Source: Flavobacterium sp. CF136 (GTDB taxonomy: Bacteria; Bacteroidota; Bacteroidia; Flavobacteriales; Flavobacteriaceae). From it: a stretch of 64,000 nt of DNA. Below the pieces are notes generated by a model. The model had not been told where the DNA came from. It saw only the letters and a program-made list of their open reading frames with translations, and did no database searches. Of this stretch, positions 33-12,082 are shown piece after piece. The position numbers and the translations under genes are program-made. The stretch lies in assembly GCF_000282055.1 (NCBI RefSeq), contig NZ_AKJZ01000045.1, positions 1 to 64,000 on the forward strand, given 5' to 3'. The stretch's first letter is position 1. The number at the start of each line of letters is the position of its first letter.

Positions 33-1682
33 CTATTTCCCAGTTTCAATAAATACCAAAGCACGTTCTAAAACCTCATCTTTTCCTGCCTGAATTCCTT
101 TTATGGTTGGTTTTACTTCAATGTCCGGAACTATACCGATTCTTTGTGTTTCACGACGATCTGGATAATAAACACCAATTCCTGTATATCTGGTATGAAA
201 TTTTTTAAAATCAATATCTATTGCATTTCCATCCGTCCCTGCCGTTTGACTTCCGATAATTGTTGTGTTGCCTGCCGTTTGGAAACACATAGCCGTCCAT
301 TCTGACTGACTTATTGACTTTTCATTTAGCAATACAATAACTTTTCCTTTATAATTATCTTTGTTTTCAAATCCAGCTTTTCTTCCTTCTGTTGTCCAAA
401 CATATCGACCCGGATAATTAAGACAAGGCATGGTGTAAATACAAAATTCTTTTGCATGCGGATTTAAAAAATTAGAAATCGACTCGTACGTTTCCTTTGG
501 ATAATTTCTCATATCAAAAACAATTGCTTTTGTGGATTTTAAAGCTTCAATCATATCTGGAACATGTCTGTCCTTTATTACACCCATGTCGACATAACCA
601 ATATTATTATCCAGAAGTTTAAATTTTTCCTTTTTTTTAATAGCTCCTTTCTTAAATTCATTTCTGTGAGAATCATGATAATTATACCACGTCATTGTTT
701 TTGTAATGTACTTGTCATCTTTTAAAAACTCTACTTTCACAGTATCCGAATTGCTTAATAAAATTTTCTCAACCAACTTGTCTAAATATTTAGGCTCATT
801 CGAAGCGGAAATCAAATCTCTATTTTCTAAGATAATCTCTCTTATTGTTTTATCATTTATTTTAGTAATTACATCACCAATTTTTATATCATCTGCCTGA
901 GCCAAACTATCGCCCAAAATTGCTGTAACGACCATTTTTTCATTAATTATCTTTCCGTCAGCGGGAAAATATCTCCTAATTTCAGAACTTGACGGAGAAG
1001 GATATATATAAAACTCAACATGGCCGTCATTGAGTTTACTCGACAATTTTCTCATTATAATATAAAAATCGCTTTCGTTCTTAGCATCAATAACAAGTGG
1101 TAAGGTTTGCTCTAAACTCAAATCCCATTTTTGATCCATTACATATTTGTACGGAAAATAATATTCTATTAAATTCCAATAGGCAAACAACATTACTATT
1201 CTGGAGCTTTTATTATTATAATCAAGATCGAAGTAATTTTTCACATTTTTTAAAGCATCAAAACCCATCTCGAATTCCTCATTACTTTGAAATCTATTAT
1301 CTTCAATAAACTTCAGTTTCTTAGAAAGTTTTTTAGAAAACAACTTATTATTAAACCAACTTAAATCGAAATTTTCATCAAAATACTCAACATCTTTTGG
1401 TTGTACAATTGGTGCAATTTCTTTGACTGGCCCAAGATTATCAATCCAGTTTTCCAGAACTAATGAAAACTCTTCTTTGGTTTGAGCTTTTTCTATTTTT
1501 GGTAAAACATCAATAAGCTGCTGATCCCAATTAAATTCGCCATTGGCAACTTTTGGATGATAATATTTTAAGAAACCCCAGACTTTGCAGGTAGCAGTCA
1601 GTTTTTCGGTTTCAGAAATTTTGGTATTTCCAAATATGGTTTGAGAAAGTACAACAAGTAGTAACAGGGTAATTTTTTTCAT
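33..1682 (-). CDS. secreted S41 family (C-terminal processing type) peptidase
   Basis: Serine peptidase of the S41 family, probably exported to the periplasm or cell surface. The chosen ATG at 1682 gives 549 residues beginning with a signal peptide (MKKITLLLLVVLSQTIFG); a longer GTG-started frame to 1757 would bury that signal. The N-terminal 100 residues resemble the helical domain usual in Bacteroidota S41 proteins. A PDZ-like segment lies near residues 245-285 (IKIGDVITKINDKTI). The peptidase core follows, with the S41 serine region KSISQSEWTAM near residue 457 and QTAGTDGN near 480. It is transcribed in the same direction as the sigma/anti-sigma pair upstream but a strong hairpin at 1761-1789 separates them, so it is likely its own unit. 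The substrate is unknown. Family call is secure, specific role is not. Confidence 0.88.
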   Translation of the reverse strand: MKKITLLLLVVLSQTIFGNTKISETEKLTATCKVWGFLKYYHPKVANGEFNWDQQLIDVLPKIEKAQTKEEFSLVLENWIDNLGPVKEIAPIVQPKDVEYFDENFDLSWFNNKLFSKKLSKKLKFIEDNRFQSNEEFEMGFDALKNVKNYFDLDYNNKSSRIVMLFAYWNLIEYYFPYKYVMDQKWDLSLEQTLPLVIDAKNESDFYIIMRKLSSKLNDGHVEFYIYPSPSSSEIRRYFPADGKIINEKMVVTAILGDSLAQADDIKIGDVITKINDKTIREIILENRDLISASNEPKYLDKLVEKILLSNSDTVKVEFLKDDKYITKTMTWYNYHDSHRNEFKKGAIKKKEKFKLLDNNIGYVDMGVIKDRHVPDMIEALKSTKAIVFDMRNYPKETYESISNFLNPHAKEFCIYTMPCLNYPGRYVWTTEGRKAGFENKDNYKGKVIVLLNEKSISQSEWTAMCFQTAGNTTIIGSQTAGTDGNAIDIDFKKFHTRYTGIGVYYPDRRETQRIGIVPDIEVKPTIKGIQAGKDEVLERALVFIETGK

Positions 1683-1760
1683 GAAAAGAAGTTTCGTTTT
1701 TGGCAGATTAGATAAACCGAATTTAGATATTAAAATTTGATTTCTACTTTTTAGCACAAA

Positions 1761-1789
1761 AAAAGAGACAATGTGAATTTGTCTCTTTT
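1761..1789 (-). terminator. intrinsic terminator of the sigma/anti-sigma operon
   Basis: Perfect 11-bp arms (AAAAGAGACAA / TTGTCTCTTTT) around a 7-nt loop. Read on the minus strand the stem is followed by a run of seven T, just after the anti-sigma gene stop at 1821. Confidence 0.75.
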
Positions 1790-1820
1790 GTAATTTCTGT
1801 TTTTTTTTATGGTAGAAATT

Positions 1821-2546
1821 TTAATCCAACTCTTTCAACAATTTCTGAACCTGCTCTTCATTCTCGAAATCAGAAGGAATAGTCAATAAAATTTCTTTGC
1901 AGGCTTTATAGTTTTTTTGTTTTAATTTAGACAAAGCCAGGTTCCAGACTGCTTTATTTTTGTAGAGGGAAGTCCCCGATTTTAATTGGTTAAAAATAGC
2001 TTCCGCTTTCGAAAACTGATTCATTTCCAATAAGGAAATTCCATAAAAATATTGAATTTCAGCAGATTTATTATCTTTCAAAATGATTTCAAAAAGCGGA
2101 ATTGCCTTTTTATAATCTTTAGCATTGAAAGCTGTTTCTGCTTGTTTTAAAGTTACATTGACATCACCTCTTTCGGCAAAATAAGCTTGTTCCTGCTGAT
2201 TAAAATCTTCAAAATTTGGATTTGAATTCTGATTAAAAAAGAAAATCCCAATTAAAACAGCAACCGATGCTGCAGCAGCCACATACCATGGTTTAAGTTT
2301 AATTACTTTTGCTTCAGACGATTTGAAATGTGCTTTAGAAATAGTTTTAAGGTTTGATTTAAAAGCTTCACGCTCTTCTTCAATCCCAAATTTATTTGCC
2401 AGTTGAAAATGCATTTCTCTAAAAGTTTCAAACGAAGAAGCAAACGATTTATCTTCCGCCAATTGGCGTTCAAAATCTTTTTTGTCTTCAATTGTCATTT
2501 CATTTTGAAGATACTGATCAAACAATATGTATTTTTCTTCGTTCAT
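1821..2546 (-). CDS. membrane anti-sigma-type protein with periplasmic TPR domain
   Basis: 241 residues. An acidic, helical cytoplasmic part (residues 1-84) precedes one transmembrane helix around 86-105 (WYVAAAASVAVLIGIFFF). The C-terminal part has TPR-like pairs (KDYKKAIPLFEIILKDN; NQFSKAEAIFNQL). The gene starts 13 bases after the end of the ECF sigma gene, so the two are co-transcribed. That pairing and the topology suggest it holds the sigma factor at the inner membrane and senses something through the TPR domain. No FecR or zinc-finger (ZAS) signature is visible, so the anti-sigma role is inferred from context and architecture. It could instead be a general TPR adaptor. Confidence 0.7.
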   Translation of the reverse strand: MNEEKYILFDQYLQNEMTIEDKKDFERQLAEDKSFASSFETFREMHFQLANKFGIEEEREAFKSNLKTISKAHFKSSEAKVIKLKPWYVAAAASVAVLIGIFFFNQNSNPNFEDFNQQEQAYFAERGDVNVTLKQAETAFNAKDYKKAIPLFEIILKDNKSAEIQYFYGISLLEMNQFSKAEAIFNQLKSGTSLYKNKAVWNLALSKLKQKNYKACKEILLTIPSDFENEEQVQKLLKELD

Positions 2547-2559
2547 GATGGGGTTCTTT

Positions 2560-3132
2560 TTAACGATTTATAGAATTGGCTTCCTGAATCCACTGCGTTA
2601 ACTGTCCTACGCACAACGATTTCTTTTTACGGACATAACCATAGGTTACATTGAGCTTTTCGGCTACTTCTTCCATGGTTTTAAGCGTAAAACTCCATTG
2701 TAAAAGTTCTTTGCATTTATCCCCTAACTTTTGAAACATCATATCAAAAAGCTGCTGTTTTTCATCGAAAGCTTCGGTTTGTAAAACCATTTCCTGAGTT
2801 GATTCTTTTATAGATGCCAAATCCTCGTTGATTGTTACCCCTTTATTTGATGTTTTTTTCAATTCATTCAACCATCTCCTTTTACACAGCAAAAAGAAAT
2901 AGGCATCAAACGGACAAGTCAGCTGCAGCGTATTGGCTTTTGCCTGATTAAAAAGTACAATCATGACCTCCTGAACAACATCCTGCGCCTGATCTTCATC
3001 TCCCGAGTTGTTCTTTATAAAGTAAACAACTTTAGGAACAAACTTTTTATAAATAGACTGAATTACTGCCGAATTATTATTCGCCAGTCCTTCGATATAC
3101 ATTTGGTCAGGATGAATTGTCTGTTTTTCCAT
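2560..3132 (-). CDS. ECF-type RNA polymerase sigma factor
   Basis: 190 residues, the usual size for an extracytoplasmic-function sigma factor. Region 2 is visible at about residues 25-95, with the core-binding helix around DEDQAQDVVQEVMIVLFNQ. Region 4 is at about 130-180 and carries the helix-turn-helix KTMEEVAEKLNVTYGYVRKK. The basic tract YVRKKKSLCVGQLTQW would contact the -35 element. It is followed directly by the TPR anti-sigma-like gene. Divergent to it lie a small membrane protein and a lipoprotein gene, each preceded by copies of a shared two-block motif (3188-3681) that is the likely target promoter. The class is certain; the stimulus is not known. Confidence 0.92.
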   Translation of the reverse strand: MEKQTIHPDQMYIEGLANNNSAVIQSIYKKFVPKVVYFIKNNSGDEDQAQDVVQEVMIVLFNQAKANTLQLTCPFDAYFFLLCKRRWLNELKKTSNKGVTINEDLASIKESTQEMVLQTEAFDEKQQLFDMMFQKLGDKCKELLQWSFTLKTMEEVAEKLNVTYGYVRKKKSLCVGQLTQWIQEANSINR

Positions 3133-3187
3133 ATTAAAAATTATCAGCTAAAGTAAAAAAAAGAATCTGAAAAAAAATCAAAGGAGA

Positions 3188-3218
3188 GGGGTAACAATTA
3201 TAAAAACAAATTGATATA
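3188..3218 (+). promoter_or_regulatory. putative ECF promoter motif, copy A
   Basis: GGGGTAACAAT, ten bases, then AATTGATATA. It matches copies B and C in both blocks and in exact spacing. It points at the small membrane protein gene starting at 3259 and lies between that gene and the divergent sigma factor. G-rich/AAC -35 blocks are common in ECF promoters, which is why I read it as a sigma target. Confidence 0.6.
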
Positions 3219-3258
3219 GCCTAACAAATGTTTTTTTAAGAATCAAAATCACATCAAA

Positions 3259-3558
3259 ATGAAAAGTTATCAATTTACAACCGAGAAAGATTTTGCCAAA
3301 TTCCAGGAAACGCTTTCAGCCAAAATCCGTAACGGATTTGTCATAATAGAACGTAATGATAAACTGCCGTATGTTGTTTTAAGCAAAGCCAAAAAACAAA
3401 TGGACCCTTCATTTCATCTGGCTTTGGTTTTTATAACTCTGGGGCTTTGGTCAATCGTCTGGTTTTATATACTGATTAAACTTTCAGGTAATAAAGAAAT
3501 ACTTGTTGCCCTTGATGAAGACGGAAATGTTTTTGAAGAAAAATGCCTCTCCAAATAA
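3259..3558 (+). CDS. small single-pass membrane protein, unknown function
   Basis: 99 residues with no family that I recognise with confidence. The first 50 residues are soluble and charged. A single transmembrane helix spans about 52-73 (HLALVFITLGLWSIVWFYIL), followed by a short tail KEILVALDEDGNVFEE. The gene lies divergent to the ECF sigma factor and directly downstream of motif copy A (3188-3218). It therefore looks like a member of the sigma factor's regulon and possibly a sensor or immunity-like membrane component. The start is supported by ATG and by the motif ending 40 bases upstream. The function is open. Confidence 0.75.
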   Translation: MKSYQFTTEKDFAKFQETLSAKIRNGFVIIERNDKLPYVVLSKAKKQMDPSFHLALVFITLGLWSIVWFYILIKLSGNKEILVALDEDGNVFEEKCLSK

Positions 3559-3581
3559 ATTTTAAAAAAAAATTAAAAACA

Positions 3582-3612
3582 GGGGTAACAATTTAAAAAG
3601 CCAATTGATATA
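3582..3612 (+). promoter_or_regulatory. putative ECF promoter motif, copy B
   Basis: GGGGTAACAAT, ten bases, AATTGATATA. Same blocks and spacing as copies A and C. It lies upstream of the lipoprotein gene at 3764 and is preceded by an A/T-rich stretch (AAATAAATTTTAAAAA) also found before copy C. Confidence 0.6.
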
Positions 3613-3650
3613 ACCATATAAAAAGGATTAGAAAATAAATTTTAAAAACA

Positions 3651-3681
3651 AGGGTAACAATATCAAACCCGAATTGATATA
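3651..3681 (+). promoter_or_regulatory. putative ECF promoter motif, copy C
   Basis: AGGGTAACAAT, ten bases, AATTGATATA, 83 bases before the lipoprotein start codon. Copies B and C together form an imperfect tandem duplication of about 70 bp including their upstream A/T tract. This gives the lipoprotein gene two promoter-like elements. Confidence 0.6.
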
Positions 3682-3722
3682 AGAATACAAAAACGATAAT
3701 TAACAACCGGAATCTGAAACCA

Positions 3723-3738
3723 CTTGAAATTTTTCAAG
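3723..3738. promoter_or_regulatory. 16-bp palindrome in lipoprotein gene leader
   Basis: CTTGAAATTTTTCAAG reads as 7-bp perfect arms around TT, 26 bases before the ATG at 3764. It could be an operator or an RNA hairpin in the leader. No second copy was noticed. Confidence 0.35.
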
Positions 3739-3763
3739 ACAGATTTATAAAAAATTAGAAATC

Positions 3764-4744
3764 ATGAACACAAATTTTAAAAAAATCGGATTATTATTTT
3801 TAGCAATCGCAACATTTGTAAGCTGTGATGACAGTGATGGAGATAATACAGTTACGCCACCATCATCAACAGAATTTGCTGCTGTCAGAGATGAAGCTTT
3901 GGCAGGAAAAACACAACATTTTACGGCAACAGCCGGAGCAGGAGTTATCACGCTTACATCTGCAAAAGGAGTTAAAATCAATATCAACGGAAGTTGTCTG
4001 ACTAAAGCAGGAAATGCCGTAACCGGAGCAATCGATATTGAATATGTAGAGCTTTTTGACAAAGGCGATATGCTTGTAACCAATAAACCAACCATGGGTT
4101 TAATGGCTGACGGAAACAAAAACTTATTAATTTCAGGTGGTGAATTTTTCATCAAAGCCACACAAGGCGGACAAGCATTAGCTACTACATGCAGCATCAA
4201 TCTGTTGGTACCAACAAATTTAACAGGAGGTTTGGACAATGCCATGACACTATGGTTTGGAAACACTGAGGATGCAGACGATTTAGTTTGGAGAGAAGCC
4301 AAAGATGGTGCTGACGGTACCGGAGGAAAAGGCGGTGTTCAGGGTGAAGGAAACAATTATTATGTAACATTTGGAAATTTTGGATGGACAAACGTTGATA
4401 AATTCTACAGTGATCCAAGACCTAAAACTACTATACTTGTTGATGCTCCCGAAGGTTACGACAATGATAATTGTGCGATTTATTTATCATACGATGGAGA
4501 AGGGCAAAATGCTTTAGCAAAATTAGATACTTATACAGCAGCAGGATTATTCAGCGAGCACTACGGACAAATCCCGGTTGGATTGGCTTGTCACATCATT
4601 TTTGCCACAGAAGATAATGGTCAATGGCGTTATGCAATCAAAGGTGTAACAATAGCTGCAAACCAAACCTACAGCTTTACTTTAGCAGAAACAACAGTCG
4701 GCAGCGAAGCTCAACTGGTAGCCGCAATCAATGCTATTCAGTAA
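3764..4744 (+). CDS. putative lipoprotein, unknown function
   Basis: 326 residues starting with a lipoprotein signal whose lipobox is FVSC, with Cys21 as the lipidated residue, followed by acidic residues (DDSDGDN) as often seen in Bacteroidota surface lipoproteins. The rest is rich in Gly, Thr and Asn and is predicted beta-rich (HFTATAGAGVITLTSAKGV; NGSCLTKAGNAVTGAIDIEY). I do not recognise a catalytic motif. It carries two upstream copies of the candidate ECF promoter and its own strong terminator at 4765-4796. It is therefore probably the most directly controlled product of the sigma factor, perhaps the envelope ligand or sensor partner of the CHAT protein downstream. Function is unassigned. 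Confidence 0.8.
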   Translation: MNTNFKKIGLLFLAIATFVSCDDSDGDNTVTPPSSTEFAAVRDEALAGKTQHFTATAGAGVITLTSAKGVKININGSCLTKAGNAVTGAIDIEYVELFDKGDMLVTNKPTMGLMADGNKNLLISGGEFFIKATQGGQALATTCSINLLVPTNLTGGLDNAMTLWFGNTEDADDLVWREAKDGADGTGGKGGVQGEGNNYYVTFGNFGWTNVDKFYSDPRPKTTILVDAPEGYDNDNCAIYLSYDGEGQNALAKLDTYTAAGLFSEHYGQIPVGLACHIIFATEDNGQWRYAIKGVTIAANQTYSFTLAETTVGSEAQLVAAINAIQ

Positions 4745-4764
4745 CTTACAAATACTTTTTTAAG

Positions 4765-4796
4765 AAAAAGTGATGATTTGCTCATCACTTTTTTTT
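4765..4796 (+). terminator. intrinsic terminator after the lipoprotein gene
   Basis: 12-bp perfect arms (AAAAAGTGATGA / TCATCACTTTTT) with a 5-nt loop and a T-run, 20 bases after the stop codon. Confidence 0.8.
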
Positions 4797-4844
4797 ACAT
4801 TTAAACCTGTTTTAAATTGATTCTGATGATTTTCAGAAGCTAAT

Positions 4845-4910
4845 CCTGCTGTCCGTTGTATCTTTTATGCCGAACTCCGGCACAAAAGGATGCCACTTCC
4901 ATCAGGGCTA
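4845..4910 (-). repeat. 66-nt interspersed structured repeat, copy 1
   Basis: On the minus strand this reads TAGCCCTGATGGAAGTGGCA, TCCTTTT, a hairpin (TGCCG-gagtt-CGGCA), then AAAAGATACAACGGACAGCAGG in sense. A second copy of the same length is at 40853-40918. It lies just before the ATG of the PKD protein, so a longer start for that gene would translate repeat sequence. Confidence 0.7.
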
Positions 4911-4925
4911 AAAACCTCTCTAGTT

Positions 4926-6881
4926 ATGAAACCACCACTACTATCTGTTTTATTTGCTCTGTTTTCAATTGTCTCCTTCTCGCAAATCAAAGTAAAAGAC
5001 ACCATAACCCGAAGAGCCAATATCATTTACAACCAAAACGGAAATCAGGTTACTTTTAAACCCGAAACTCCGCCCTTAATTCCGATTGCGGGTGCTCCAA
5101 AACCAAGTTATTCGTATTTATGGGAACTGGGCGACGGTCATTTCAGTAAAGAAGCCGAACCAAAACATGTTTACAAAAACAAAGGAACTTATACCACCCG
5201 ACTTGCCGTAACCAATAATTACGACAACGGAAAACCTCCGGCTACACGCCCAAAAAAAGTGGCTGTAAATGACATAACCGATACTAATTACAAAGATATT
5301 GCATCAATTGCCGATCAAAACGGATTCGAAATCCTGAAAAATTGCGACCCAATTCCGGAACAGGAAATGGTCGTTGTAGTGGGTTATCAAAATTTAGAGA
5401 ACTATGTTTCCAGCGGTAAGCTGTATCTTTTTTATAACGAAAAACAATTCAAAAGCAATAATTTCGAATTAGTCGATTTTAGAACGTATGCCAACGAACG
5501 CGAAATAAAAGAAAACATTGTCGCAGCTGTTGACGATCTTGATGACACCAAAAATTATCTGGCTTCAGCCGACAACACTTTAAAAATAAAAAAATACCGA
5601 AACACAACTACCGAAGAAGATCTCGATGCATCATTATCAGACGCCCATAAAACCTATCATAATGTTTCTGTTTTAGAATTTGACGATGTCAATCCCGGTG
5701 AAACCCATAATGTTTTTTATACTTTTAAAACTACACCCGAAATGATTAAGGATACCAGCGCAACGGTAACTATGCGAGGGATATTTGTTCCAAACCGAAG
5801 TTTTAAAAACCATAAAATAAAAAACCTCGAAATGGAAATCGTAACCTCTCACGATCCTAATAAAATGGGGTCTAACGGAAGTTTAATCAACTATCGTCTG
5901 GTACGGTTTAAAAGAGTAAAATTTAAAACTCGTTTTCAGAATAATGGCGAAGGACCAGCAAGGATGATTCGCTTAGAAACCGATATTCCGGATATGTTTG
6001 ATAAAAAAACATTTCAAATTGAAGGCATGTATCCTGAATGCCCAATTTGTCCAAAAGGCGAAGAACCAACCGTAAGCTGTTTGGATACGATTATCAAACA
6101 AAAACAAATTTTCTTTACGTTTAAAAATATTTATTTACCTGGAAGTGAACAAAAAAATGTACATGAAAAAGACTCAACCAAAGGTTTTGTCCGGTATTCA
6201 ATGAAATTCAACGAAGACTTTCATAAAGTAAACACCAGAAGCAGAACGGCAATTATTTTCGACAAAAATGAACCTATTATTACCAACTACGCCACTACCC
6301 GATTTTTACCAGGAATATCGATTGGTGTTAAAGCCGGATATAATTTCTATCCTAATTTAGATAATTCGACCAGTTATTTTGTTGGTGCAACTATTTCACC
6401 TTTCAAGTCGTATCGCTTTTACTGGCAGGCAGAATGGGTCAATAGCTTAAATAAATATGATAGTTCGGTTAATGTAGTTGATGAAACAATTACCAATGCA
6501 AACGGTGTAAAACAAAGACAGCGTACCACTACAAGTACCGAAAACAAAAGTGTCAATTGGGAAGTCCCGGTTCTTATTCGCTACAACATTAACAACTACA
6601 TAGGAATTGGTGCCGGTTTTCAAACTAACATAAATGTTTCGCAAGAGCAGAATCAGAGTAGACGAATAGACCTTTTTGAGGGTGATTCGGATAAACTCAT
6701 AATTAGCACAAGAACAGAATCAAACTCAGCTAAAAACTCATTGACAAATTTAAAAACAGGGCTTTTATTCGATTTAACAGCCGGATTTGCCAGAATTGGC
6801 CCAAGTCTGGGGGCGCGTTATGTAATTAATTTTGAACAGAATTTTAATTATTTCCAGTTTTATGGAATTTGGAAATTTTAA
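4926..6881 (+). CDS. exported PKD-domain protein with C-terminal outer-membrane beta-barrel
   Basis: 651 residues from the ATG at 4926. This start gives a clean signal peptide (MKPPLLSVLFALFSIVSFSQ), while the upstream ATG at 4890 lies in the 66-nt repeat. A PKD domain covers about 40-110, with the hallmark YLWELGDGHFS and a following HVYKNKGTYTTRLAV. The middle third is beta-rich and contains RFQNNGEGPARMIRLETDI, similar to adhesin-like repeats of Flavobacteria. Residues from about 475 alternate polar and hydrophobic strands and end in phenylalanine (YGIWKF), typical of outer-membrane barrels. It precedes the CHAT protein by 99 bases. It may be the cell-surface part of the sigma/CHAT locus. 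Role inferred, topology reasonably clear. Confidence 0.75.
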   Translation: MKPPLLSVLFALFSIVSFSQIKVKDTITRRANIIYNQNGNQVTFKPETPPLIPIAGAPKPSYSYLWELGDGHFSKEAEPKHVYKNKGTYTTRLAVTNNYDNGKPPATRPKKVAVNDITDTNYKDIASIADQNGFEILKNCDPIPEQEMVVVVGYQNLENYVSSGKLYLFYNEKQFKSNNFELVDFRTYANEREIKENIVAAVDDLDDTKNYLASADNTLKIKKYRNTTTEEDLDASLSDAHKTYHNVSVLEFDDVNPGETHNVFYTFKTTPEMIKDTSATVTMRGIFVPNRSFKNHKIKNLEMEIVTSHDPNKMGSNGSLINYRLVRFKRVKFKTRFQNNGEGPARMIRLETDIPDMFDKKTFQIEGMYPECPICPKGEEPTVSCLDTIIKQKQIFFTFKNIYLPGSEQKNVHEKDSTKGFVRYSMKFNEDFHKVNTRSRTAIIFDKNEPIITNYATTRFLPGISIGVKAGYNFYPNLDNSTSYFVGATISPFKSYRFYWQAEWVNSLNKYDSSVNVVDETITNANGVKQRQRTTTSTENKSVNWEVPVLIRYNINNYIGIGAGFQTNINVSQEQNQSRRIDLFEGDSDKLIISTRTESNSAKNSLTNLKTGLLFDLTAGFARIGPSLGARYVINFEQNFNYFQFYGIWKF

Positions 6882-6890
6882 AATTCAAAT

Positions 6891-6955
6891 GTCACCCTGA
6901 GCGGAATCGAAGGCTTCATAATTGAAAAGGTCTTCGACTCCGCTCAGACGGACAC
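6891..6955 (+). repeat. palindromic intergenic repeat (GTCGAAG/CTTCGAC type)
   Basis: Arms GAGCGGAATCGAAG and CTTCGACTCCGCTC pair with a small internal mismatch around a loop of about 19 nt; outer GTC/GAC bases extend it. Repeats of this kind are frequent between Flavobacterium genes, from memory. It fills the gap between the PKD and CHAT genes and may stabilise the upstream mRNA end. Confidence 0.65.
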
Positions 6956-6980
6956 TTCACAATACTATTCCAACTATAAT

Positions 6981-9641
6981 ATGAACTTAAATAACTTATA
7001 TGTTTTAATTTTTCTTTTCCTAAACCTAACAGTTTGGGGACAACATCAGGAAGATAAAATATATAACGCAATTGATGTTTTTGTTGCTCATCCTTCTGCG
7101 AAAGCGTTACAAAATCTTACCAACACTGAAACCGCTTTCTGGAAAAGCCCAAAACCAAAATCTAAAGATGAGTTATTGGCGATTGCGGTTTTAAATTGCA
7201 ACAAAGCTTATTATGAAAACCAATTTGGACAATCGGAAAATGCAATAAAAAGCTATGAAAAAGCCTGGCAGATTTACCAAAAAAACAAACTCAGAAATTA
7301 CGATATTATCGAATATTGCCTGAAACCTTTAGGTAATTTATATACCATTTTGGGCGATTACGACAATGCCGAAAACACCATTAAACAATATTATTTTATT
7401 GCAAACCTGGAGAAAAATGAACCTCAGAAAGTGGCAGCAATTCTTAATTTATCAAACGTATATCAAAACACGGGGAATGTTTACAAAGCAATTGATTTAA
7501 TCGAAAAGACAATTCAAACAGAAAGATTAACCCCAACTCAAAAAGGTCTTTTATTAAACAATTTAGGAACTAATTATTTCCTGACAACGAAAGGTTTTTT
7601 AATTAAAACAAATGCTTTTGATAAGGCTGAAAATTCATTTCTGAAAGCTATTTCATTATTAGAAAATGATAAATCACAAACTGAAACTTTATCCAATTCT
7701 TACCGAAATTTAGCCAAACTAAACATGGAACGCAATGATTTGAATAAAGCCACGGAATATTTTGAAAAAGCCAAAATTGAATTCAATAAAATACCAAATC
7801 AGGAACCCCGAAAAATAGCGCAGTTTTATTACGAAGCTGCTTTTATTTCTTTCAAGCAAAGAAAAATAAGTGATGCAAACCAGAATATTACAGCTGTTTT
7901 TAAAACGCTTCTTCCAAATTATTCGAATATAAAAAGTGTCCTGCCTAATCAAAATTCGCTGTATGCAGAAACTGTTTTACTTGATGTTTTAGATTTACAG
8001 GCTGAAATTTATCTGGTACAAAGCCAGCCTAAAAATGCATTAAAAAGTTATACACTTTCGTTTTATATCGAAGATTTGTTCCAGTCACTTTTGGTGTATG
8101 AAAATTCCAAAATCGTAACACAAATCAGAAATCGGAACCGAACTGAAAAATGTATAGCTATTTATTATTCTCTTTATGAAAAAGAAAAGAAAATAAGTTA
8201 TATCGAAAACGCTTTTTTACTTTCGGAACAAACCAAATCTGTTGTTTTAAAGAGTCGACTCAATGATCATCAAATTCTTTCAAGAGAAGAAAAACTCATT
8301 CTGCAGCAGCTTCAAAACTGGAATACGGTTATTGTAAAAGAACAGCAAAAACTGGAATTGGCCGATATTTCTAAAATTAATGAAGCCATCAAAAAACAAA
8401 ACGAATTGATGCTGCTTCTTAAAAAAGATCAAACCAAAACTGCCAAAGAAACCAATAGCGAGTTTGATTTACAAAAATTATATGTCAAATTAGAGGAAGA
8501 CAAGGCGACGATGGTTGAATATTTTTTTGGTGCCAATTGCATTTATAATTTTACAATTGAGAATAAAAAAATAACACTTCATTATATTTCTCTGGAAGGC
8601 ACCTGCTTTACAAGTCTGATGGGATTTATCCGCTTTTTCAATAATCCAAATGCGATAGCAGATAATCCTCAAAATTATAATCGGATTGGTGAAAGCATAT
8701 ACCGAATATTAAAAATTCCGTCTTATAAAAAGCATAAAAACCTCATCGTTATTCCTGATGGTATTCTGAGTTTTTTGCCTTTTGAAGCTTTGATTACAAA
8801 AGAATCCAAAACTACAAATTTTGCAAAAATGCATTATTTGCTAAATGATTTTAATGTTGCTTACAACAATTCTGCTTCATTTTATTTGAACTCAATTCCA
8901 TTTTCAAATACTAAAAAAACAGTTTTGGGAATTTTTCCGGTTTTCGAAAAAACCAATTTTGCCTTAACATTTTCTAAGAATGAATTACAATCAATCAAGA
9001 AGAATTTTGAAGGTCAGTTTTTCGAAAATAATAATGCAACGTTTTCAAATTTCAAAAACAATGCGGCTAATTATTCTATTCTGCATTTGAGCACACATGC
9101 TTCTTCGGGTGATACAGAAACGCCAGCGAGTATTAAATTCTATGATCAGGAAATATTATATTCTGAGTTGTATAATCTTAATATAAAACCGGATTTGGTA
9201 GTTTTGAGTGCCTGCGAAACCGGAATAGGAAAATTGTATAGAGCCGAAGGCGCGATGAGTGTTGCAAGAGGTTTTCAGTTTGCCGGAGCTCAAAATTTAT
9301 TGTTTTCGTTATGGAAAGTAAACGATTATACGACTTCTGTTTTTATGGCTGATTTTTATCAAAACATCAAAAACAAACAATCCTATTTTGAAGCAAATGC
9401 CAATGCAAAACGCGATTTCCTAAATGATTCAAATATTTCAAATGCTAAAAAATCACCTTACTATTGGAGTGCTTTTGTGTATTACGGAACTATTTCTAAT
9501 CCTGAAAAATCTTCAAATTATATCGTGTATATCATTAGTATATTGACCGCAATTGGTTTATTTTTGATTTTCAATCATTATCGAAATGGAAGATCTTCAG
9601 AAAGTCCTCAAAAAAGAAAAATACAAAAAAATAAAATTTAA
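6981..9641 (+). CDS. TPR-CHAT protein (caspase-fold, secreted and membrane anchored)
   Basis: 886 residues. Signal peptide at 1-20 (MNLNNLYVLIFLFLNLTVWG). TPR repeats run over about 70-290 (GQSENAIKSYEKAWQIYQ; GDYDNAENTIKQYY; NDLNKATEYFEKAKIEF). A charged helical segment at 420-480 is followed by the CHAT domain at about 560-845. Its caspase-like dyad is intact: His706 in ILHLSTHASSGD and Cys745 in LVVLSACETGIGK. A transmembrane helix at about 847-866 and a basic tail (PQKRKIQKNKI) close the protein, so the TPR and CHAT parts should face the periplasm. CHAT proteases cleave partner proteins when a linked sensor is triggered. The retropepsin gene overlaps its 3' end by 56 bases, implying coupled expression. 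Target unknown. Confidence 0.88.
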   Translation: MNLNNLYVLIFLFLNLTVWGQHQEDKIYNAIDVFVAHPSAKALQNLTNTETAFWKSPKPKSKDELLAIAVLNCNKAYYENQFGQSENAIKSYEKAWQIYQKNKLRNYDIIEYCLKPLGNLYTILGDYDNAENTIKQYYFIANLEKNEPQKVAAILNLSNVYQNTGNVYKAIDLIEKTIQTERLTPTQKGLLLNNLGTNYFLTTKGFLIKTNAFDKAENSFLKAISLLENDKSQTETLSNSYRNLAKLNMERNDLNKATEYFEKAKIEFNKIPNQEPRKIAQFYYEAAFISFKQRKISDANQNITAVFKTLLPNYSNIKSVLPNQNSLYAETVLLDVLDLQAEIYLVQSQPKNALKSYTLSFYIEDLFQSLLVYENSKIVTQIRNRNRTEKCIAIYYSLYEKEKKISYIENAFLLSEQTKSVVLKSRLNDHQILSREEKLILQQLQNWNTVIVKEQQKLELADISKINEAIKKQNELMLLLKKDQTKTAKETNSEFDLQKLYVKLEEDKATMVEYFFGANCIYNFTIENKKITLHYISLEGTCFTSLMGFIRFFNNPNAIADNPQNYNRIGESIYRILKIPSYKKHKNLIVIPDGILSFLPFEALITKESKTTNFAKMHYLLNDFNVAYNNSASFYLNSIPFSNTKKTVLGIFPVFEKTNFALTFSKNELQSIKKNFEGQFFENNNATFSNFKNNAANYSILHLSTHASSGDTETPASIKFYDQEILYSELYNLNIKPDLVVLSACETGIGKLYRAEGAMSVARGFQFAGAQNLLFSLWKVNDYTTSVFMADFYQNIKNKQSYFEANANAKRDFLNDSNISNAKKSPYYWSAFVYYGTISNPEKSSNYIVYIISILTAIGLFLIFNHYRNGRSSESPQKRKIQKNKI

Positions 9642-10023
9642 AATCATCAAAACACAACATTTATTGATTAAAGTAAAAATAAATGATGTTTCAGGAAATT
9701 TTATTTTAGACACCGGAGCTTCCAATTCCTGTGTGGGTTTTGAAAGTATTGAACGATTTAAATTAACTACAAAAAATTCAAAGACCAAGGCTTCCGGAGC
9801 AGGCGGAACCGGAATGGAAACACAAATTTCTAAGCATAATTCCATGCAAATAGGTTCCTGGAAAAATACTGATTTCGGTATCGTGATTTTTGACCTTTCA
9901 CATGTCAATGAAGCTTTACAGCAATACAAAGCAAAATCTGTTCACGGCATTATTGGCGCTGATGTTTTGATGGAAGGTAAAGGTATTATTGATTATTATA
10001 ACCATTATTTGTATTTGAAATAA
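9586..10023 (+). CDS. retropepsin-like aspartic protease
   Basis: 145 residues with the single-lobe aspartyl protease motif FILDTGASNSCVGF, where Asp42 is the catalytic residue, a central Gly-rich flap region (GAGGTGMET) and the second hallmark GIIGADVLMEGKGIIDY near residue 124. Retropepsins act as homodimers. No signal peptide or membrane segment is visible, so it is probably cytoplasmic, on the other side of the membrane from the CHAT domain. The ATG lies inside the last codons of the CHAT gene (56-base overlap in another frame). Later ATGs would remove the strand before DTGAS, so this start is favoured. It could be a regulator that cleaves the anti-sigma protein, but this is only a guess from the neighbourhood. 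Confidence 0.82.
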   Translation: MEDLQKVLKKEKYKKIKFKIIKTQHLLIKVKINDVSGNFILDTGASNSCVGFESIERFKLTTKNSKTKASGAGGTGMETQISKHNSMQIGSWKNTDFGIVIFDLSHVNEALQQYKAKSVHGIIGADVLMEGKGIIDYYNHYLYLK

Positions 10024-10289: not shown

Positions 10290-10842
10290 AACAAAAGCAA
10301 ACAAAAACATTCCAATGGCATATAATGTCATTCCAATATAAATACTTTTTTCATTTCCTAATTTTCTGCTTGTCCATCGTATCAAACCACCCTGAACCAA
10401 ACTTACTAGAACCCCGACAACACCTAACGAAATACTACCATTTTTTCATCCCAGCTAAATTTGTACATTGTAAAATAACTCCAGTTACTTTCTACCGCAT
10501 GGGACGCAACATAAATTAAAAACAGCGCAAACAATAATCCATAAAGCGCAGGTATTTCTTTAAATTTAAAAAGGCGCCAATTGGATTGGCTCTTTTCAAA
10601 TTAATAGGTCTTCTGCTTTCTTTTGATAATGATTCCGGCAAAATAAAATAACCATATAAGAAATTCAGTAAGCATAAAACTGCTGCTCCATAAAATGGAA
10701 TTCTGGATCCGTAATGACCTAAAATACCTCCTATAACAGACCCAATTATAAACCCTAATCCAAAAGCGGAACCAATCATTCCGAAATTTTTGGCTCTGTT
10801 TTCAGGTGTACTCACGTCGGAGATATAAGCGGAAGCGGTTGA
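10275..10842 (-). pseudogene. MFS (TetA-like) drug transporter remnant, truncated at both ends with two frameshifts
   Basis: The minus strand encodes [20 protein letters not shown] and [19 protein letters not shown] in one frame. The frame is lost near 10552, where one base is missing in the codons for KKYPAL. It continues as [20 protein letters not shown] up to about 10436, where another single base is missing (VV for VGIS). The third piece reads VQGGLIRWTSRKLGNEKSIY and ends at SESWM, where it meets the AlbA_2 fragment. Family members are about 400 residues, so the N-terminal third and the C-terminal part are both gone. The two one-base gaps and truncations make it clearly dead. Confidence 0.8.
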
Positions 10843-11503: not shown

Positions 11504-12082
11504 ATGGATTCAGAATTAAAAAACTCGCAAATTCTAGAAGCAGCATTAAACAATGTTGCACAAATTACCAACATCCAAGTAATTATTGATACGGATAAAA
11601 TCCAGAATGATTACCCAAATGGAGGAAGTAAAGACTCCAACAATCCAACAGGAATAGGACATCAATACCAATATATGGTGAGTTCTAATCTGGCCGGAAG
11701 TACAGGAAGCGGTACTGCTGATCTAACTATTAATGCACTTTCCGGAGATGTAGTTCGCTTTAATGCTGTATCTGAATATGACAATTTCAACAATGCTGTC
11801 ATAATCTATAATATACAAAAATTTGGAGGTTCAAATGTATTTGGGGATTTTACGTCCAAAGTATTTACTGCCCCAGGAATCCAACCTTCAGTAGGAACTT
11901 CTCCTCTGCCTATTCAAATTGTTAATTCAATGACTTATTGGTTTTATCAGGCAGATGTGATTACAAGTGGTACAGAACAATACAACATTAGTTTTGCTCT
12001 TTATGTTTTAAACAGACAATCTGGTACAATGCAATTGTATGGTTATTTTATATGGGATCCAACAATTATTGTTAATGGATAA
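11504..12082 (+). CDS. PixA/AidA family inclusion body protein
   Basis: 192 residues matching the PixA/AidA inclusion-body family in several places: IDTDKIQNDYP near the N terminus, SKDSNNPTGIGHQYQYMV, GSGTADLTINALSGDVVRFN, AVIIYNIQKFGGSNVFGDF, and the C-terminal LYGYFIWDPTIIV. There is no signal peptide, in keeping with cytoplasmic crystal-forming proteins such as PixA of Xenorhabdus. In Burkholderia/Ralstonia the related AidA is quorum-controlled and linked to nematode killing. The gene stands alone between a palindrome-rich scar zone and the odh genes, with its own strong terminator, and may be acquired. Family call is good; role in this organism is unknown. Confidence 0.82.
   Translation: MDSELKNSQILEAALNNVAQITNIQVIIDTDKIQNDYPNGGSKDSNNPTGIGHQYQYMVSSNLAGSTGSGTADLTINALSGDVVRFNAVSEYDNFNNAVIIYNIQKFGGSNVFGDFTSKVFTAPGIQPSVGTSPLPIQIVNSMTYWFYQADVITSGTEQYNISFALYVLNRQSGTMQLYGYFIWDPTIIVNG

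Follow-up and report, generated by a model that had tools for sequence, protein, structure and literature searches.

A secreted TPR-CHAT protein as the candidate site-1 protease of a membrane-spanning ECF anti-sigma factor in Flavobacterium and other Bacteroidota

The 64,000-nucleotide stretch of Flavobacterium sp. CF136 analysed here (contig NZ_AKJZ01000045.1, positions 1 to 64,000 of the forward strand; hereafter the window) carries, between positions 1,821 and 10,023, a locus that encodes an anti-sigma factor, an extracytoplasmic function (ECF) sigma factor, a 99-amino-acid (aa) protein, a lipoprotein, a PKD/DUF7849 protein and a CHAT protein. This locus is conserved in many Flavobacterium genomes. 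We consider it likely that the CHAT protein is the site-1 protease of the anti-sigma factor and cleaves its periplasmic linker after Arg126 (R|G/S). All open reading frames (ORFs) listed in an initial annotation of the window were recovered in place, with the domains assigned to them, in the ORF list and domain searches. A smaller core, made up of the ECF sigma factor, a single-pass TPR anti-sigma factor and an exported TPR-CHAT protein with an intact His-Cys dyad, recurs across the phylum. In the window, its features are:

1821–2546, minus strand: single-pass anti-sigma factor, assigned from TPR families, a weak NCBIfam anti-sigma match and an AlphaFold2 model
anti-sigma residues 1–73: N-terminal helical domain in the AlphaFold2 model, putatively sigma-binding
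anti-sigma residues 86–108: transmembrane helix in the AlphaFold2 model
anti-sigma residues 116–130: periplasmic coil in the AlphaFold2 model
anti-sigma residues 131–240: TPR domain in the AlphaFold2 model
2169–2171, minus strand: codon of Arg126, putative P1 residue of the CHAT cut (R126|G127)
2560–3132, minus strand: ECF sigma factor (TIGR02937, 56.9 bits; cut-off 42.9)
6981–9641, plus strand: exported TPR-CHAT cysteine protease with a predicted C-terminal membrane anchor (CHAT PF12770, 149.6 bits; cut-off 24)
8982–8984, plus strand: codon of CHAT Glu668, putative S1-pocket residue, in helix alpha-1 by sequence order
9096–9098, plus strand: codon of the catalytic His706 of CHAT
9207–9209, plus strand: codon of CHAT Ser743 (Cys minus 2), which covaries with anti-sigma residue 126
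9213–9215, plus strand: codon of the catalytic Cys745 of CHAT
9324–9326, plus strand: codon of CHAT Asp782 (in SLWKVND), which covaries with anti-sigma residue 126
9522–9578, plus strand: predicted C-terminal transmembrane anchor of CHAT

The sigma factor has the ECF layout of about 190 amino acids with Sigma-70 regions 2 and 4, region 4 being recognized only below cut-off (Sigma70_r2 is above, Sigma70_r4 below, and TIGR02985, at 63.5 bits, also below). The anti-sigma factor, modelled with a mean pLDDT (AlphaFold2 confidence) of 87.9, shows the arrangement of single-pass transmembrane anti-sigma factors: N-terminal helices, one transmembrane helix, a C-terminal part beyond the membrane and a gene adjoining that of the sigma factor. 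The gene pair, and the correlation of sigma and anti-sigma tree distances (rho 0.76), suggest that it binds and inhibits the sigma factor. No FecR family occurs among its Pfam matches up to E 1, which sets the pair apart from the FecI/FecR type, and a fold search returned nothing at E ≤ 0.001, the top matches listed being TPR-type proteins (best E 2e-3). The CHAT gene is the sole CHAT match in the window's genome. The His706-Cys745 dyad reported in the initial annotation is indeed intact and is kept in 96 of 96 orthologs, in all 72 CHATs that could be paired with an anti-sigma factor and in all 44 alignable CHATs, paired or unpaired, of the first 40 phylum loci described below. Ortholog CHATs mostly carry an N-terminal (69/79) and a C-terminal (77/79) hydrophobic segment.

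Conservation was followed in 61 genomes of the genus, the window's included, 22 of which have a long CHAT ortholog (split into two matches in one, G031). Loci were retrieved from 20 of the 21 such genomes other than the window's, and all 20 encode, in unchanged order, the anti-sigma factor, sigma factor, PKD protein, CHAT and a downstream retropepsin-like protease (in L045, a contig end clips the retropepsin); the lipoprotein is absent from one. A set of named loci, the best 80 of 119 and with mostly Flavobacterium names, has divergent sigma and lipoprotein genes in 72, most of the others being clipped by contig ends. F. johnsoniae CI04 is among the strains with an ortholog (L154). Six loci of the full type were retrieved from other genera of the family, five of them complete and one without a retropepsin match.

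A wider sample comprised 118 genomes of the window's phylum (taken as Bacteroidota); 46 of them gave CHAT profile matches at E ≤ 1e-15, with at most seven candidates scored per genome. Linkage was assessed in 40 stretches out of 81 listed CHAT matches, one a window-type ortholog and the others non-orthologous. Models built from orthologs plus two distant loci detected the anti-sigma factor in 26 and the sigma factor in 25 of these 40 CHAT stretches, against 0/20 and 3/20, respectively, in arbitrary 15-kb stretches of the same genomes. After retraining, partly on the models' own finds, the anti-sigma factor was matched in 31/40 CHAT stretches versus 1/20 controls, that one weakly (Fisher p 5e-8). 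In a second set, sampled from the family (40 of 91 listed matches), the anti-sigma models matched 40/40, one match (L274) being a spurious 109-aa fragment. The arrangement of the two genes is variable: of 71 loci, 40 have CHAT and anti-sigma convergent (37 of these ending ≤50 bp apart), 20 divergent and 11 on the same strand. One locus (L082, 5160–11141) has two tandem CHAT genes beside a single sigma/anti-sigma pair, and a relative of the PKD protein adjoins one unlinked CHAT (L102).

The candidate cut site is a single residue. In all 84 distinct ortholog anti-sigma factors, residue 126 is Arg; the residue before it is Glu in 81, the one after it is Gly or Ser in 83, and residues 128–132 are variable. 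Arg126 lies in a coil predicted by AlphaFold2 between the transmembrane helix and the TPR domain. In a broader alignment of 72 anti-sigma factors, chosen out of 87 well-matching candidates (a standard that L081, L089 and L274 missed; L284 is one of the sequences not included), mean column identity is 27% and the only nearly invariant columns are Met1, Tyr12, Ala92, Ala93, Arg126 and Trp201. Residue 126 is Arg in 62 of 72 CHAT/anti-sigma pairs, and the P1' residue is Gly or Ser in 62 of 67. In the first 27 anti-sigma factors, window included, residue 126 was Arg in 23, Lys in two and another residue in two. An expectation was noted at that point: Arg or Lys in the linker followed by a small residue, Asp at CHAT position 782, and Glu782 only together with Lys. 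In 40 later loci, residue 126 was Arg in 35 and Met in three, the remaining two being an Arg shifted in the alignment (L284) and the spurious fragment (L274); CHAT 782 was Asp in 37/40 and Glu in exactly the three Met loci.

Matched changes at the two positions suggest a protease-substrate relationship. The 72 pairs comprise 62 with Asp782 and Arg126, two with Glu782 and Lys (L093, L094), three with Glu782 and Met (L305–L307), and five with Asp782 and another letter or a gap at 126. Asp thus occupies CHAT 782 in 67/72 pairs and Glu in exactly the five Lys or Met pairs. Two of the five irregular pairs have an Arg one or two residues off (L103, L284), one is the spurious fragment (L274), and two have weak anti-sigma matches with an unaligned linker (L081, L089). 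These five were dropped. A scan of the remaining 67 pairs, all with R, K or M, covered 228 anti-sigma columns and 292 columns of the C-terminal part of CHAT, the TPR part lying outside it. On the anti-sigma side, residue 126 alone separates the five exceptional pairs from the rest; on the CHAT side, four columns do: Glu668, Ser743, Ile749 and Asp782. Position 668 is Glu in 62/62 Arg126 pairs and in 96/96 orthologs, Leu in the Met type, and Val and Met in the Lys type. Ser743 becomes Asp in the Lys type and Thr in the Met type. On the CHAT tree, two changes at 782 and two at 126 fall together in both independent pairs, and the Met-type event comes from loci retrieved after the expectation had been noted. 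The Met-type modules L305–L307 have sigma, anti-sigma and CHAT genes on one strand, and further matches in the family listing, with frames of about 1075–1100 aa, may be of the Met type as well.

Two of the covarying columns, Glu668 and Ser743, fall where related proteases have their S1 pocket. The portions of a clan CD review considered here place P1-Arg contacts on helix alpha-1 (RgpB Asp163, MALT1 Asp365) and describe a potential S1 pocket in TbMCA2 formed by Asp95 (alpha-1) and Asp211, two residues before Cys213 (PMC4357240). Glu668 would lie in alpha-1, where these residues contact or line S1, and Ser743, as Cys minus 2, would have a position like that of TbMCA2 Asp211. The chemistry of the substitutions appears sensible, with an acid gained at 743 when P1 would be Lys and an acid lost at 668 when it would be Met. 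A CHAT-only profile, which found the CHAT chains 7x8a, 8d9f-h and 8rot, matched no separase chain, and a full-length CHAT profile matched only TPR chains among those of the PDB; given the lack of a separase sequence match, the S1 assignment rests on the covariation and on the positions named in the review.

The genes divergent from the sigma factor suggest what the system controls. They and the accompanying promoter-like motif are:

3189–3218, plus strand: first copy of the promoter-like motif, 70 bp ahead of the 99-aa gene
3259–3558, plus strand: 99-aa membrane protein with no significant family, a putative regulon member
3583–3612, plus strand: second copy of the promoter-like motif
3652–3681, plus strand: third copy of the promoter-like motif, 112 bp ahead of the lipoprotein gene
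3764–4744, plus strand: lipoprotein (lipobox ...VSC-DDSDGD), conserved beside sigma, PKD and CHAT, putatively the main regulon output
4926–6881, plus strand: exported PKD + DUF7619 + DUF7849 (barrel-like) protein by domain matches, a candidate outer-membrane sensor or partner

Three exact copies of GGGTAACAAT-N10-AATTGATATA begin at 3189, 3583 and 3652, with zero in 100 shuffles of the window, and a shorter form of the motif has no additional exact copy in the 5.1-Mb genome. The initial annotation described promoter motifs shared between divergent genes: the motif is real, but all copies lie on the plus strand before the 99-aa and lipoprotein genes, and none is oriented to serve the divergent sigma/anti-sigma pair. 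Of the 22 genus genomes with a CHAT ortholog, 21 contain the form GGTAACAA-N13-TTGATAT, versus 2 of the 39 without (Fisher p 4e-13); its reversed control is found in none of the 61. Of 66 strict sites in the 61-genome sample, 53 lie within the locus. In the named loci, the motif occupies the gap between sigma and lipoprotein genes in 65/72 (72/72 when up to 3 substitutions are allowed), and 140 strict sites fall inside this gap versus 3 elsewhere in those stretches. The window's genome shows no sign of a wide regulon, the strict motif being confined to the locus; allowing up to 3 mismatches adds 4 sites, versus 0 for the reversed control. The simplest reading is a dedicated ECF promoter that would drive a small, variable set of exported proteins encoded in its own locus.

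Motif number and downstream genes vary. Up to five copies occur in L191 (5560–6680), L047, L052 and L173. In F. aquatile, three successive genes encoding different exported proteins each have a copy upstream, beginning at distances of 75, 62 and 104 bp; these proteins would be a variable cargo under control of the sigma factor. Of the retrieved orthologous loci of the genus, 12/20 contain the 99-aa gene, as do 53/80 named loci, some of which are clipped by contig ends. The lipoprotein has no significant Pfam family, its AlphaFold2 model is poor (pLDDT 60.6), and Foldseek found nothing at E ≤ 0.001; the acidic residues after its lipobox Cys suggest that it reaches the surface. One genome without a CHAT ortholog has a lipoprotein homolog (53% identity) near its retropepsin (L069, 9597–10634), suggesting that the lipoprotein may exist alone. 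The ORF of the PKD protein spans 4890–6881 (plus strand), with the ATG at 4926 the likelier start, and the protein is 56–88% identical in 20/20 retrieved genus loci.

A mechanism can be sketched from these observations. At rest, the anti-sigma factor would hold the sigma factor. CHAT would be released by an envelope signal, which the lipoprotein and the PKD/DUF7849 protein may pass on in the window's lineage. It would cut the anti-sigma factor after Arg126, between membrane helix and TPR domain, and so remove the TPR domain. General intramembrane and cytoplasmic proteases would then degrade the remaining stub. Once free, the sigma factor would transcribe from the GGTAACAA-N13-TTGATAT promoters in its own locus.

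Several results weigh against this interpretation. The covariation comprises only two independent events, and a tree-based sign test (p 0.5) falls short of significance because there are only two. The expectation that Glu782 would occur only with Lys failed to the letter, the new Glu782 cases having Met; its Arg part held, and only the broader rule survived, that Glu782 accompanies loss of Arg126 in the sequences compared. CHAT and anti-sigma tree distances correlate moderately overall (rho 0.38, 0/2000 permutations) and not significantly in 19 same-genome pairs (rho 0.25), and the CHAT-sigma correlation is weaker (rho 0.21, 23/2000 permutations). Nine of the 40 CHAT loci in the phylum set lack the anti-sigma factor, one of them (L087) having a weak sigma match 4 kb away, and 2 of 30 CHAT loci of another family have a sigma/anti-sigma pair, their flanks of about 1.5 kb being too short to judge. 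The idea that Asp782 corresponds to the P1-binding Asp of separase was rejected as unsupported by the alignment of the Craspase authors, in which separase D2151 corresponds to Csx29 K670, four residues past the residue aligned with Asp782, in the part of that paper considered here (PMC9729208). Finally, six of eight close homologs of the anti-sigma factor whose surroundings (about 7 kb) contain no CHAT keep Arg126, and the Arg could have another role. All five genomes of these six homologs encode CHATs elsewhere; of the two homologs without the Arg, one is in a genome where no CHAT was found (L252) and the other is a shortened copy (L256). This distribution fits the model and is no proof of it.

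Those six homologs also speak for an alternative that we regard as unlikely, in which CHAT belongs to the output of the sigma factor and works as an effector in the periplasm, breaking down other envelope proteins or killing the cell; the anti-sigma factor would be cut in a DegS-like manner, and Arg126 would be structural. In Flavobacterium, the CHAT gene indeed lies downstream of the putative sigma-dependent promoter motif, and Glu668 and Asp782 are present in 11/11 CHATs without an adjacent anti-sigma gene, so an Arg-type pocket appears to be general in the family. Against CHAT as an output stands the covariation, in which residue 126 is the sole one of the 228 anti-sigma columns to change with the CHAT active site. 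Linkage also persists despite the varying orientation of the two genes, a pattern more in keeping with a partner than with a gene downstream in an operon.

A still less probable alternative makes CHAT a scaffold, its TPRs binding those of the anti-sigma factor to sense the signal and another Arg-specific protease making the cut. The retention of the His-Cys dyad in every paired CHAT and every ortholog is at odds with a scaffold, as is the placement of the covarying CHAT columns at or near S1-pocket positions, with the reservation that the TPR part of CHAT was outside the scan; what it has in its favour is that both proteins have TPRs predicted to be periplasmic and that proteolysis by CHAT is itself deduced from sequence.

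The initial annotation had placed the downstream retropepsin in a two-sided relay, with CHAT attacking the anti-sigma factor from the periplasm and the retropepsin attacking it from the cytoplasm, and had suggested looking for a conserved neighbourhood of CHAT, DTGAS protease and ECF sigma factor. The linkage of CHAT, sigma and anti-sigma is conserved, and a periplasmic action of CHAT is supported by the putative S1/P1 covariation, but the retropepsin is not tied to CHAT and its cytoplasmic role found no support. The gene in question is:

9586–10023, plus strand: retropepsin-like protease (Asp42 in DTGAS), a neighbouring core gene, not part of the system

Its ORF overlaps that of CHAT by 56 bp. 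Retropepsin orthologs occur in 51 of the 61 genus genomes (52 have any match at E ≤ 0.001), namely in 22/22 with a CHAT ortholog versus 29/39 without (Fisher p 0.01), an excess that is expected because the island sits beside the retropepsin. In 20 of the 29 CHAT-less retropepsin loci that were examined, the window's sigma, anti-sigma, PKD and CHAT proteins have no match and tatD adjoins the retropepsin in all 20; tatD is also present in 67/69 long CHAT stretches. The system is therefore best viewed as an island between two backbone genes. Two retropepsin-bearing genomes without a CHAT ortholog (G032, G058) have distant CHAT modules elsewhere (L056, L057). Among the retrieved stretches, retropepsin and lipoprotein matches are confined to window-type loci, with none in non-orthologous CHAT modules.

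One genome, G049, carries the scar of the whole system. In its oriented stretch (L055, 7246–10627), sigma residues 1–129 are fused to anti-sigma residues 51–241 in one ORF, the lipoprotein, PKD protein and nearly all of CHAT are lost, and the last 39 CHAT residues precede an intact retropepsin. Even though the retropepsin lies directly 3' of CHAT in 20/20 orthologous loci, often overlapping it, and none of the 22 genus genomes with a CHAT ortholog lacks it, a two-sided relay is highly improbable in view of the CHAT-less genomes that keep the retropepsin, its tatD neighbourhood, its absence from the retrieved non-orthologous modules and its survival in G049. As a component it was rejected on these grounds, and it appears to take no part in the system.

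The closest known parallel to the proposed cleavage by CHAT is Craspase, in which, according to the portion of the report considered, the TPR-CHAT protease Csx29 cleaves Csx30, an inhibitor that binds the ECF sigma factor CASP-sigma (PMC10028731). The systems share a TPR-CHAT protease with a His-Cys dyad, an ECF-sigma inhibitor as the (here putative) substrate, and adjoining genes. Unlike in Craspase, the CHAT studied here is predicted to be exported and membrane-anchored, and its likely substrate is a transmembrane TPR anti-sigma factor. Pfam searches of the ORFs at 33–10023 found no Cas7-11/gRAMP or other CRISPR part, no dedicated CRISPR or array search being run. Our CHAT profile hit 7x8a and 8d9f-h at E 4e-7 to 8e-7, PDB chains that bear the name 'CHAT domain protein'. 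We take these to be TPR-CHAT/Csx29, and the numbering of 7x8a fits the published C627. As far as the excerpts go, Csx29 has K670 at the separase P1-Arg position (PMC9729208), whereas P1 would be Arg, Lys or Met here, and the two papers differ on the Csx30 cut, one reporting it after L407 and the other between residues 427 and 429 (PMC10028731, PMC9729208).

A periplasmic site-1 cut of a single-pass anti-sigma factor, followed by a presumed intramembrane cut, would also resemble the DegS/RseP-RseA-sigma-E pathway. DegS is a trypsin-like PDZ serine protease. Here, the protease in constant linkage is CHAT, which belongs to the clan CD cysteine proteases, with a putative site at an Arg in the linker before the TPR domain, and the neighbouring S41 peptidase is found in 32/80 named loci. 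The pathway is mentioned in the consulted part of the Csx29 report (PMC10028731). With no CRISPR effector among the locus ORFs, an exported protease and a transmembrane substrate, the system belongs to neither Craspase nor DegS/RseA; by analogy, it would work like both, as a variant of protease-released ECF signalling.

Eukaryotic separase, to which TPR-CHAT is structurally similar according to the Craspase paper as far as consulted, offers a further likeness in its caspase fold, a P1 Arg read by an Asp and an unstructured segment that is cut (PMC10317155, in part). Its substrate and compartment are different, and the counterpart of its P1-binding Asp in CHAT is only putative. In the sections considered of PMC8195603, EACC2/caspase/TRADD-N neighbourhoods likewise bring together a caspase-fold protease, an ECF sigma factor and a TPR (DUF1822) gene; these are conflict systems with other domains, and those sections describe no transmembrane TPR anti-sigma factor or cut site. 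The Dma anti-sigma factors of Bacteroides thetaiotaomicron are, like the one here, membrane-spanning and from Bacteroidota, and 'dual membrane-spanning' by the title of a reference in the TamL paper, the consulted part of which contains 0 occurrences of CHAT (PMC12045153). No title describing a CHAT/anti-sigma system outside CRISPR in Bacteroidota was found in the open-access literature searched.

With some reserve, we lean towards a broader view of these modules as a phylum-wide form of envelope signalling. A secreted CHAT resembling separase would be dedicated to the site-1 cut of transmembrane TPR anti-sigma factors, and S1 and P1 would co-evolve (Arg, Lys, Met), which would keep apart paralogous pathways that run side by side in a cell. 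A cytoplasmic offshoot of this scheme would then be the CRISPR cascade of Csx29, Csx30 and CASP-sigma. If so, exported Bacteroidota CHAT proteases would gain a job and a substrate, a cysteine protease would join the known ways of releasing ECF sigma factors, and the Craspase cascade would fall within a wider set of CHAT proteases acting on sigma-factor inhibitors. Single residues provide handles on this model: Arg126 in the anti-sigma factor, and Glu668, Ser743, Asp782 and Cys745 in CHAT.

Further observations concern the genes flanking the locus. An S41/PDZ peptidase adjoins the anti-sigma gene (33–1757, minus strand); it is tandemly duplicated in seven named loci, and its conservation is too low for a core part. 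After the retropepsin, a short ORF at 10516–10815 (minus strand), perhaps from 10203, matches a major-facilitator transporter (PF07690) and looks broken, as several relatives without a CHAT ortholog have what looks like a transporter-like ORF of about 405 aa there. Further downstream, 11504–12082 (plus strand) encodes a PixA-type inclusion body protein (PF12306, 139 bits).

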